Shown here: positions 10,034 to 61,470 of the stretch, piece after piece | How positions within the stretch are numbered: the first letter of the stretch is position 1 | Layout of the letters: the number at the start of each line of letters is the position of its first letter | DNA from: Syntrophotalea carbinolica DSM 2380 | GTDB lineage: Bacteria > Desulfobacterota > Desulfuromonadia > Desulfuromonadales > Syntrophotaleaceae | Length of the DNA stretch: 64,000 nucleotides | Direction of reading: 5' to 3' | NCBI RefSeq assembly: GCF_000012885.1 | Contig: NC_007498.2 | Span: 3,566,001 to 3,630,000, forward strand | The notes under the pieces: model-generated | The model's input: only the letters and a program-made list of their open reading frames with translations | Told to the model about the DNA's origin: nothing | The model's database searches: none | Program-made: the position numbers and the translations under genes

Positions 10034-11011
10034 TCAAGCATGGTTCAACAGCTTAGCCGCTTCCTTGGCGTGATAGGTAATGATCAGATCGGCTCCGGCA
10101 CGCTTCATACCGGTCAGCAGTTCCAGCATCACCTTGTCATGGTCGACCCAGCCCTGCTGCGCCGCAGCCTTGAGCATGGCGAATTCCCCGGAGACGTTGT
10201 AAGCCACCAGCGGCAGATCGAAACGTTCCCGCAGATCGCGCAGGATGTCGAGATAGGCCATGGCCGGCTTGACGATGAGAAAATCGGCGTTTTCGTTCAC
10301 ATCGAGCTGGGCTTCGCGCAGGGCCTCGCGGCGGTTGGCCGGGTCCATCTGATAGGAACGCCGATCACCGAATTGAGGGGCCGACTCCGCCGCTTCGCGA
10401 AAGGGTCCGTAAAACGCGCTGGCGTACTTAACAGCATAACTCATGATCGGCAGATGGTCGAATCCTTCGCTATCGAGGGTGCGGCGGATGGCCGCCACCC
10501 GCCCGTCCATCATGTCGCTCGGCGCGATGATGTCAGCACCGGCACGAGCATGGGCCAGGGCCTGCAGGGACAACAGACGAAGCGTCGGATCGTTGACCAC
10601 CTCCTCGTCACGGATCAGGCCGCAATGGCCGTGGTCGGTATATTCGCACATACAGACATCGGTAACCACAATCAACTCCGGCACCGCCGCCTTGATGGCA
10701 CGGATGGAGCGGGGAATGATGCCGTCTTCGTTGGTGCCCTCGCTGCCCTCGGCGTCCTTATGATCCGGAATGCCGAACAGGATCACCGCAGGAATGCCGA
10801 GATCCCGGATCTCGCGGGCCTCCGCCGCCAACCGGTCCACGGACATCTGGCTGACGCCGGGCATGGAACTGATGGGATTGCAGACGTCGGTACCCTCGAC
10901 GCAGAACAGCGGATAGATAAAGTCGTCCACCGCCAGCTGGGTCTCGCGAACCATGTTGCGCAAAATCGGAGTGCGGCGCGTGCGACGGGCCCGGTATTCG
11001 GGAAATTTCAT
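10034..11011 (-). CDS. hemB: porphobilinogen synthase (delta-aminolevulinic acid dehydratase)
   Basis: Condenses two 5-aminolevulinate molecules to porphobilinogen in the cytosol. The 325 residues are full length. A zinc-type cysteine triad is present at C120, C122 and C130 in [13 protein letters not shown], the same positions as in the E. coli enzyme. The two active-site lysines are in [14 protein letters not shown] and [11 protein letters not shown]. The start has a strong AAAAGGAGTATCCC site. It lies on the same strand as the other haem genes but is separated from cobA/hemD by a 1.2-kb repeat region, so it probably has its own promoter. Confidence 0.97.
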
Positions 11012-11070: not shown

Positions 11071-11290
11071 TCAACACCGCGGGGTCGCGCCCCCGCACGG
11101 CGCATTACTCTTTTAATACGCCTCAAAAGAGTAATCAGAAAAGGGCGCCCCGATTCCTGGCCCGCCTGCGGCGGGTTCCCTGCGCTACGCAACCGTCGGG
11201 CGGGCGGACAAGATTCGCTACGCTCAGTCGTCCGCCTGTTTCGCCCGCCGCTCGCTTCGCTCCGGCTGCGTCATGAGGGGATTAACGGCA
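11071..11290. repeat. 220-nt structured repeat, copy 1
   Basis: The unit begins TCAACACCG and ends GGGGATTAACGGCA. Its parts are hairpin GCGGGG/CCCCGC, hairpin ATTACTCTTTT/AAAAGAGTAAT (11104-11135), hairpin CCCGCC-tgc-GGCGGG, a long stem GGGCG-GGCGGAC/GTCCGCC-CGCCC, and a GC-rich tail. Copies 2 and 3 have exactly the same length. Differences between copies fall as paired changes in the first two hairpins, which suggests the folded form is maintained. Confidence 0.85.
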
Positions 11291-11482
11291 CGGCCATAAT
11301 AAAACAAATGAGCAAGGTCGATATCTGCAACAGCTACGCAGATAGCAGCGAAACCATTTCCGTTCCGCAAGTAAGACAGACGAAGATATTCATGGCTCTT
11401 AAGTGGCAGCAGCGGTGACCCGAAGCCCCGCCTCTGGCGAATCCAAGTCATGGCGGCAGCCGACCTTACGTCCATTCTTTGG

Positions 11483-11512
11483 TTACTTTCTTTAGACGAG
11501 TAAAGAAAGTAA
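11483..11512. repeat. perfect 12-bp hairpin in the spacer between repeat copies 1 and 2
   Basis: TTACTTTCTTTA, a 6-base loop gacgag, then TAAAGAAAGTAA. There is no T tract beyond a normal terminator position, so it looks like part of the repeat family rather than a terminator. The equivalent spacer between copies 2 and 3 lacks it. Confidence 0.75.
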
Positions 11513-11585
11513 GCCGGCTGCCGGCCGGGACCGGCGGGGTTGAAGTTGACGTAAAGGTTTTAACTCTTTGGACTTAGCACCTACT

Positions 11586-11805
11586 TCAACACCGCGGGGT
11601 CGCGCCCCCGCACGGCGCCTTACTCTCTTTTCACACCAAAAGATAGTAAGCAGAGAAAGGTGCCCCGATTCCTGGCCCGCCTACGGCGGGTTCCCTGCGC
11701 TACACAACCGTCGGGCGGGCGGACAAGATTCGCTACGCTCAGTCGTCCGCCTGTTTCGCCCGCCGCTCGCTTCGCTCCGGCTGCGTCATGAGGGGATTAA
11801 CGGCA
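11586..11805. repeat. 220-nt structured repeat, copy 2
   Basis: Same length and boundaries as copy 1. The second hairpin here reads CTTACT-c-TCTTTT / AAAAGA-t-AGTAAG. Its outer pair is C-G where copies 1 and 3 have A-T, a compensated change. The small hairpin loop is tac instead of tgc. Confidence 0.85.
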
Positions 11806-11929
11806 CCGCCGTTATAAAACAAGTTAGTAGCGCCGCCCCTGGCGAATCCAAGTCATGGCGACAACCGGCCGGGACCGGCGGTGTTGAATTTGAAGTAAAT
11901 GTTTTAGTTCTTTACACCAAACACCAACT

Positions 11930-12149
11930 TCAACACCGTGGGATCGCGCCCCCACACGGCACATTACTCTTTTAATACGCCTCAAAAGAGTAATCAGAAA
12001 AAGGCGCCCCGATTCCTGGCCCGCCTGCGGCGGGTTCCCTGCGCTACGCAACCGTCGGGCGGGCGGACAAGATTCGCTGCGCTCAGTCGTCCGCCTGTTT
12101 CGCCCGCCGCTCGCTTCGCTCCGGCTGCGTCATGAGGGGATTAACGGCA
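11930..12149. repeat. 220-nt structured repeat, copy 3
   Basis: Same length as the others and closest to copy 1. In the first hairpin the second pair is T-A (GTGGG/CCCAC) where copies 1 and 2 have C-G (GCGGG/CCCGC), another compensated change. It ends 74 bases before the stop of cobA/hemD. Confidence 0.85.
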
Positions 12150-12223: not shown

Positions 12224-13765
12224 CTATGCCTCCAGCTCGCCAAAATACCCCTGCAAAGCCTCAATCAGCATCTCCACCGTCGGCACCGCAGCCTCCACGG
12301 CAACCTCCAGACCGTGTCGGCGGACGGTGTCACTGGTCAGAGGGCCGAGGCTGGCGATCGTCACCCCTGCCAGCAGCCGCTGACCGTCATCGCCAAGAGC
12401 CTGCAGGCAATGATCCACCGCCGAGGACGAGGCAAAGGTCACGGCATCGACACCCTGCTCGAGGGCTTCACGCAGCTGCTCGGCAGCACCGACGGCGGCA
12501 CGGGTATGATAGGCCACCGGGGCACAGACCTCGGCACCGGCAGCGGACAGTTCCGTAACCAACAGATCGCGGGCCCGTTGGCTACGGGGGTAGAGAATGC
12601 GCTTGCCGGTCACGCCCCTGTCAAGAAGCACCTCCAGCACCCCTTCGGCGCGTTGCTCATCGGGCAGCAGATCGGCGCGCAGGCCATACTGCCGAAGAGC
12701 GGCAGCGGTTTTGGGGCCCACCGCGGCGATACAAACATCATGAAGAAGGCGACTGTCGTGCCCCAGGGCAAACAACCGTTCGAAGAAATAGTTTACCGCA
12801 TTAACGGAGGTCAGCACCAATACATCGGTACCGGGCAGCTGCTGCAAGGCGGCATCCAGCTCCTGCCAGTCGGGAGGCGGCACGATCTCCAGGGTCGGAC
12901 AGCAGATGGCCTCGGCCCCGGCGGCCTGCAAGCCCTCGGTCAGGACACCGGCCTGGCCGGCGGCCCGGGTCACCAGAATGCGCCGCCCGAACAGCGGCCG
13001 GTTGTCGAACCAACGCAACTGCTTGCGCAGTGCCACGATTTCACCGACCACGATGATGGCCGGCGGGCCCAGGCGGGCCTGCTGCACGCGTTCGGTGATA
13101 TCGGCCAGCGTGCCGACCAAGGTCTGCTGCCGCGGGGTGGTGCCCCAGCGTACCACGGCCACCGGAGTGTCGGGCGCGCGACCGTGTTGCACAAGCTTTT
13201 TGGTGATGGTGGCCAGATTGCCCATGCCCATGTAAAACAGCAGGGTACCGACCCCGGTGGCCAGTTTCGACCAGTCGAGACTCGACACCTTCTTTTTCGG
13301 ATCTTCATGGCCGGTGATCAAACCCAGACTGGTGGTGTAATCACGATGGGTCAAGGGAATCCCGGCATAGATGGCGGCGCCGAAACCGGCGGTGACACCC
13401 GGCACGATCTCGAAAGGCAAACCCGCTTCGGCCAGTTCGCAGGCCTCTTCGCCGCCCCGACCGAAAAGACAGGGATCACCCCCCTTGAGACGCACCACCA
13501 CCTTGCCCAGACGCGCTTTTTCGACCAGCAGCGCGTTGATCTTCTCCTGAGGCAGGTGATGGTGGCCAGCCGTTTTGCCGACATAGATGCGTTCGGCCGT
13601 GGCCGGTGCCTCATGCAGCAGCTGCGGATTGGCCAGGTAATCGTAGACCACGACTTCGGCACGGCGCAGGCACTGCAATCCCCGCACGGTCAGCAAGCCG
13701 GGATCGCCGGGACCGGCTCCGACCAGATAAACGATGCCTGTGGCGCTGTTTTCGCAACGGTTCAT
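12224..13765 (-). CDS. cobA/hemD: uroporphyrinogen-III C-methyltransferase / uroporphyrinogen-III synthase fusion
   Basis: A 513-residue two-domain enzyme. Residues about 8-245 are the SAM-dependent methyltransferase making precorrin-2 ([43 protein letters not shown]). Residues about 260-505 are the uroporphyrinogen-III synthase domain that cyclises hydroxymethylbilane ([17 protein letters not shown] near its start, [16 protein letters not shown] near its end). The fusion is usual in this bacterial group. It places the branch point between haem and sirohaem/corrinoid synthesis in one polypeptide. The start follows the hemC stop by two bases, so the two are translationally linked. Confidence 0.95.

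Positions 13766-61394: not shown

Positions 61395-61470
<76 letters not shown>

Follow-up and report, generated by a model that had tools for sequence, protein, structure and literature searches.

Repeat units at the hemB locus

The window analysed here is the whole 64,000-nt stretch from position 3,566,001 to 3,630,000 of the Syntrophotalea carbinolica DSM 2380 genome (also Pelobacter carbinolicus, hereafter P. carbinolicus), a single contig of 3,665,893 bp. Within it, an intergenic region separates two genes of the same direction, named by us from their sequences: a cobA/hemD-type fusion gene upstream (12224–13765, minus strand) and hemB, encoding porphobilinogen synthase, downstream (10034–11011, minus strand). 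Homologues of hemB were found in 17 of 21 genomes, and a cobA/hemD-type orthologue could be placed beside it in 15 relatives. The intergenic region holds three plus-strand repeat units, which an earlier note on this DNA had described as equal in length, and the cores delimited by our covariance model (R1) are indeed 207 nt each, at 11075–11281 (copy 1; 205 bits, E 7.5e-59), 11590–11796 (copy 2; 197 bits) and 11934–12140 (copy 3; 198 bits). These cores are embedded in 285-nt direct repeats with 78–100% identity.

A further, partial unit lies on the minus strand at 11442–11540 (37.9 bits, E 3.1e-9), in which hairpins A and B and a pseudoknot are kept and the remainder has diverged. This opposite arm is convergent with copy 1, the two enclosing a middle of 160 nt (11282–11441), and stands head-to-head with copy 2 across a spacer of 49 nt (11541–11589), the modal length of such spacers in other genomes. 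Reading of the sequence 3' of copy 2 (inverted repeats I6/I8) reveals the tip of a hairpin A, CCGGCCGGGACCGGCGGTGTTGAA, as the remnant of another opposite arm (11866–11892, minus strand). The repeat units match no Rfam family at gathering or relaxed thresholds, the latter giving one chance miRNA match. A tRNA gene (61398–61470, minus strand) is the sole match in the window at gathering score.

A conserved fold with two pseudoknots

Among 24 diverse homologues, 85.9% of paired cells are filled by pairs against 74.4% after shuffling, a comparison that flatters the fold in that it was read from the same aligned sequences on which it was then counted. The strength of the evidence is in the changes on both sides of pairs: 38 of the 65 pairs have changed in this way, both pseudoknots included, and the covariation score of 0.310 (0.116 when shuffled) is reached by 0 of 500 shuffles, so the fold is not a product of chance. 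The selection on a fold proposed in the earlier note is thereby borne out, and the paired differences on which it was based are present, a C-G pair of the first hairpin being T-A in copy 3 and an A-T pair at the base of the second being C-G in copy 2. The four hairpins that it described as nested exist but are sequential, except within one multibranch domain closed by CCCC/GGGG.

The architecture can be followed in copy 2. Stem A (GCGGGG/CCCCGC, 11594–11611) carries a loop, GCGC at 11602–11605, that pairs with the bases directly downstream at 11615–11618 (pseudoknot A, 92.6% paired; covariation helices 1 and 2). Stem B follows with 12 bp (11619–11650), and its loop, CACC at 11634–11637, pairs with GGTG at 11659–11662 (pseudoknot B, 93.8% paired, with both-side changes in every pair; helices 3 and 4). 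Since each loop pairs with downstream bases, both hairpins are pseudoknotted. The multibranch domain (11663–11795; helices 5, 9 and 10) is closed by CCCC at 11663–11666 and GGGG at 11792–11795 and contains hairpin C and the long stem D of about 21 bp; the register of helix C was wrong in the pair count and this helix is not relied on.

Between stem B and the downstream strand of pseudoknot B lies a purine stretch (CAGAGAAA, 11651–11658 in copy 2) that repeats the purine arm of stem B in mirror order, a signature of a triple helix. Across 47 diverse copies, the mirrored positions of three variable column pairs are both A or both G in 91–98% of cases, against 53–57% when shuffled (91–99% and 52–68% as the widest ranges). 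Watson-Crick pairing cannot account for such mirror covariation, and base triples can; the triplex would be of the purine motif if it forms on the plus strand and of the pyrimidine motif if on the minus strand.

A probable constraint on DNA rather than RNA

The earlier note left open whether the fold acts as RNA or as single-stranded DNA, and a test of wobble pairing favours the DNA alternative. Substitution events placed on a tree number 65 from Watson-Crick to G.U, 80 from Watson-Crick to A.C and 370 from one Watson-Crick pair to another in the element, whereas RNase P of the same order gives 86, 10 and 116 respectively (G.U to A.C 8.6:1), a control whose alignment is less diverged, and alignment error inflates G.U and A.C alike. 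Cell counts agree: the stems of 47 diverse copies hold 45 G.U and 59 A.C among 2,242 cells, against 11.5% G.U and 0.87% A.C in the RNase P RNA stems of 29 relatives. Neither the tree events nor the cell counts reveal an excess of G.U over A.C on either strand of the element, and because wobble is not tolerated on either strand the constraint looks like one on DNA, or on both strands, rather than on RNA.

The same test bears on the possibility that the units are a structured noncoding RNA gene or untranslated-region element, dispersed by duplication, whose pseudoknots and triple helix act in RNA, possibly of the minus strand. The architecture is RNA-like in its two H-type pseudoknots with mirror-strand triples, single copies exist, and the mirror strand would also be compatible with a triple helix in RNA of the minus strand, the pyrimidine strand then forming U.A-U triples as in telomerase-type pseudoknots. 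We nevertheless consider this explanation unlikely, given that neither strand prefers wobble pairs (the ratio is 8.6:1 in RNase P), that copies have no preferred orientation relative to genes (27 sense and 21 antisense) and that Rfam offers no match.

A coding function finds no better footing. No open frame is conserved, copy lengths being spread 35:31:28 over the residues modulo 3; only 7–12 of 24 P. carbinolicus copies are free of stop codons in a given plus-strand frame, and no frame is uninterrupted in more than half of the copies. The frames inside the units do translate into arginine- and proline-rich peptides, as had been remarked, and such frames may feed spurious proteins into databases. 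Further copies and covariation were thus both found and codon-level selection was not, the opposite of the outcomes that the earlier note had named as fatal to its reading.

Distribution of the family

The P. carbinolicus genome contains about 25 full-length copies (25 long matches) and four short ones, clustered at 348–402 kb and at the hemD-hemB locus. Four copies at 347693–348828 of this genome (G000) stand in tandem with a period of about 308 nt, contrary to the inverted rule seen elsewhere. The expectation of a widespread family proved correct: 26 of 40 Desulfuromonadales relatives carry the unit by DNA search and 37 of 40 by covariance model, which also matches beta- and gammaproteobacteria. 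A short-motif search led to Thiobacillus, Nevskia, Kangiella, Thiomicrospira and others, and with strict filters the family is present in 49 genomes of a 299-genome sample of the phylum to which Nevskia belongs. Motif matches in Dyella and Pedobacter are probably due to chance, the genomes behind both being without a model match. In genome G004, low-complexity tracts of the CAGCTATCAGC type precede the copies (L071–L073).

Viral contigs, searched with one motif, and phage records gave no match to the element, and among plasmids only replicons of very large size, from Variovorax and Caballeronia, match. A full-length convergent pair without cargo occupies an intergenic position on a Variovorax paradoxus replicon of 2.48 Mb (L285, 2501–3214).

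Inverted pairs and insertion between genes

Copies that neighbour each other within 700 nt are inverted in 81 of 93 pairs, 36 being head-to-head (modal gap 49), 45 tail-to-tail (gap 11–577) and 12 tandem. The tail-to-tail, or convergent, pair is the usual form in beta- and gammaproteobacteria, and the arms of Thiobacillus-group genomes are mostly in such pairs; some single copies have no visible partner, which counts against reading the units as halves of an inverted pair. The elements are inserted into intergenic regions. With genes called by a simple ORF script, 96 such regions comprise 35 between convergent genes, 48 between co-directional genes and, fewest, 13 between divergent genes; the 48 co-directional regions hold 27 sense and 21 antisense copies, that is, no orientation bias to genes. 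A few initial P. carbinolicus loci had hinted at an orientation in which the head faces a start codon, which is gone across the 96 regions.

The hemD-hemB gap, which measures 1,215 nt here and holds three plus-strand copies and one opposite arm, is 14–289 nt in 13 of the 15 relatives with both genes placed and longer than 1 kb in two. The element is absent from the gap in all 15 of these, and in all 16 relatives fetched, and the nearest relative (L208, 91% HemB identity) has a gap of 149 nt with only the tip of an opposite arm. Because the gaps of relatives lack the element and are mostly short, the copies were inserted in this lineage. In the L208 gap upstream of hemB, the arm tip is fused as a mosaic to a different palindromic repeat (GATGTGCTGAGG..ACGAAGCGCATC). 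Two findings count against mobility: the outer ends of 11 elements show no matched 8-nt direct repeats that would mark a target-site duplication, and excision was not observed for any element. Many Thiobacillus arms are accompanied, frequently on both sides, by a REP-like sequence, TTCGCCCTGAGCYTGTCGAAGGGC, located about 45 nt outside the arm (L249–L255). The earlier note overlooked a supported reading, in which each unit is one of the inverted paired arms of a mobile element that was inserted here between hemD and hemB and that encloses genes elsewhere.

Cargo genes in the Thiobacillus group

Several arm pairs of the Thiobacillus group enclose one gene of low GC content. These single genes differ while the boundaries around them are conserved, and one orthologous locus is among the examples. 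Ten middles of 295–1,228 nt have a GC content of 0.44–0.50, against 0.56–0.66 outside. One cargo is a HEPN_AbiU2 protein (E 1.3e-28), and most match no Pfam family. Larger middles from Nevskia (2.3 kb) and from a Desulfuromonadales MAG (1.5 kb) contain host-like genes and were excluded from the cargo.

Downstream of a gene that we take to be mpl, a pair is found in nine genomes with middles of 100–884 nt; three of these have no ORF of 50 codons, and the others encode membrane-type proteins, AbiU2 or one further protein, presumably trypsin-like by our inspection. Where mpl is followed by a presumed lysR, both flanks are common to three genomes and the middle is a membrane gene, AbiU2 or nothing. 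The left arms at this site are 91–94% identical, comparable to mpl itself (89–92%), and either the arms or plain homologous recombination between conserved flanks may drive the exchange of middles. The inner boundaries are of two types, and where visual inspection distinguishes them the gene points away from one type and towards the other. For one orthologous pair of cargo genes dN/dS is 0.09, pointing to purifying selection.

All cargo forms found come from the Thiobacillus group, a point against reading the units as arms of a mobile element. No cargo includes a transposase, and our limited search found no autonomous transposon with the same ends among the elements read.

Comparison with known mobile systems

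The nearest described organisation is that of REP, REPIN and BIME sequences (PMC3116915, PMC3733652), which the element resembles in being intergenic, multicopy and folded and in forming inverted doublets and alternating clusters. Its unit, however, is about 205 nt with several helices and two pseudoknots, against a REP hairpin of 20–40 bp; its pairs can enclose genes, unlike those of REP, REPIN and BIME; and at the 12 loci considered it does not accompany Y1 transposase genes, which REP sequences flank. REP units end in an unpaired GTAG or CGTC tag; in a non-systematic look, CGTC was seen in the tail of the element (GCGTCA) and not as a free end. The units might be read as a giant REP/REPIN or a TIRYT-type repeat mobilised by an IS200/IS605-like tyrosine transposase resident in the genome, and such genes do occur in 37 of 40 relatives, alongside the REPIN traits of inverted doublets and intergenic location. 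Copy number is, however, only weakly correlated with Y1 number (Spearman 0.29, p 0.065), three genomes (G019, G024 and G031) carry elements but no Y1 gene, none of the 12 Y1 loci fetched has an element within 1.5 kb, and among the listed Y1 genes one is near a copy by eye, all of which makes this origin improbable.

Unrelated genes are also carried by some copies of MITEs and mobile insertion cassettes, which have inverted ends and no transposase, and the convergent inverted arms and transposase-free cargo of the element recall them. The differences are that the ends of the element are long folded arms conserved more in structure than in sequence, that 11 elements are without an 8-nt target-site duplication and that no autonomous partner is seen among those read.

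Likeness to integron cassettes extends to folded DNA ends conserved in structure and to single low-GC genes in one orientation, but the element has two inverted arms per gene where attC is one direct site, is without an attC core and is not near an integrase. The arms could still be an integron-like recombination site whose cargo is moved by an integron integrase, a gene encoded by 14 of the 15 genomes with elements, among them P. carbinolicus, and by 0 of 14 controls, which did not include element-free relatives. The cargo of single low-GC genes and the presence of an AbiU2 cargo homologue beside an attC-like site would fit, but no element lies around 12 integrases (up to about 8 kb on each side) and the inner boundaries show no attC core, GAAAGTCAAAACCAGG and CCTGGTTTTGACTTTC being by eye a misfit to RYYYAAC and GTTRRRY; we hold this to be very improbable. 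The three integron-integrase genes of G000 lie at 655807–656754, 1615847–1616794 and 3099008–3099865, and the 16 kb stretches fetched around them contain neither attC-like core pairs nor elements. The AbiU2 homologue, 49% identical to the cargo, directly follows the attC-like site (L287, 1408–2172), an arrangement suggesting that integron cassettes may be a second vehicle of the AbiU2 gene family. Neither the REP-transposase nor the integron explanation is supported so far.

Mutation in place of selection is likewise very improbable as an explanation. Replication template switching that perfects quasi-palindromes, and so makes covarying arms in neutral DNA, would fit the Watson-Crick-only covariation and the fact that the two arms of one element are nearly identical in patches (L251, outer flanks). 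It cannot, however, yield the covariation of the purine strand, which is mirrored and not reverse-complementary, and it poorly explains 4–5 nt pseudoknot pairings kept through both-side changes.

The P. carbinolicus genome paper catalogues the multicopy sequences of the species in a supplement (PMC3543383), which probably includes these copies; as far as its main text goes, no fold, mobility or wider family is given. Non-subscription papers, searched for sequence motifs and for inverted cassettes that carry genes, yielded nothing on the family, its fold or its cargo forms, and the family, absent from Rfam, is apparently undescribed in the literature searched.

Conclusions

On balance, we favour a non-autonomous mobile DNA element, of which the units would be the folded inverted arms. 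Each arm is under a Watson-Crick-only, strand-symmetric constraint on one fold, and a complete element would consist of two diverged inverted arms that converge on a middle, which is either short or carries a gene. The arms may fold as single-stranded DNA or as a cruciform, an enzyme supplied in trans may recognise the fold and move the element, and the middle may be exchanged when the arms and the inner boundaries, both conserved, recombine; the window's copies would then be cargo-less, partly decayed forms. Against mobility counts the fact that none of the Y1 transposases and integron integrases checked was identified as the mobilising gene.

A bolder and distinctly tentative proposal is that the family, across Desulfuromonadales and beta- and gammaproteobacteria, constitutes a gene-exchange system apart from integrons. 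Paired inverted arms of DNA pseudoknots and triple helices would then flag the site at which a putative recombinase replaces one single gene by another, in a single orientation and between inner boundaries that are conserved. Gene exchange outside integrons could be put to a direct test at the Thiobacillus loci, and Watson-Crick-only covariation of a pseudoknotted fold would represent an unusual conserved tertiary fold in chromosomal DNA.
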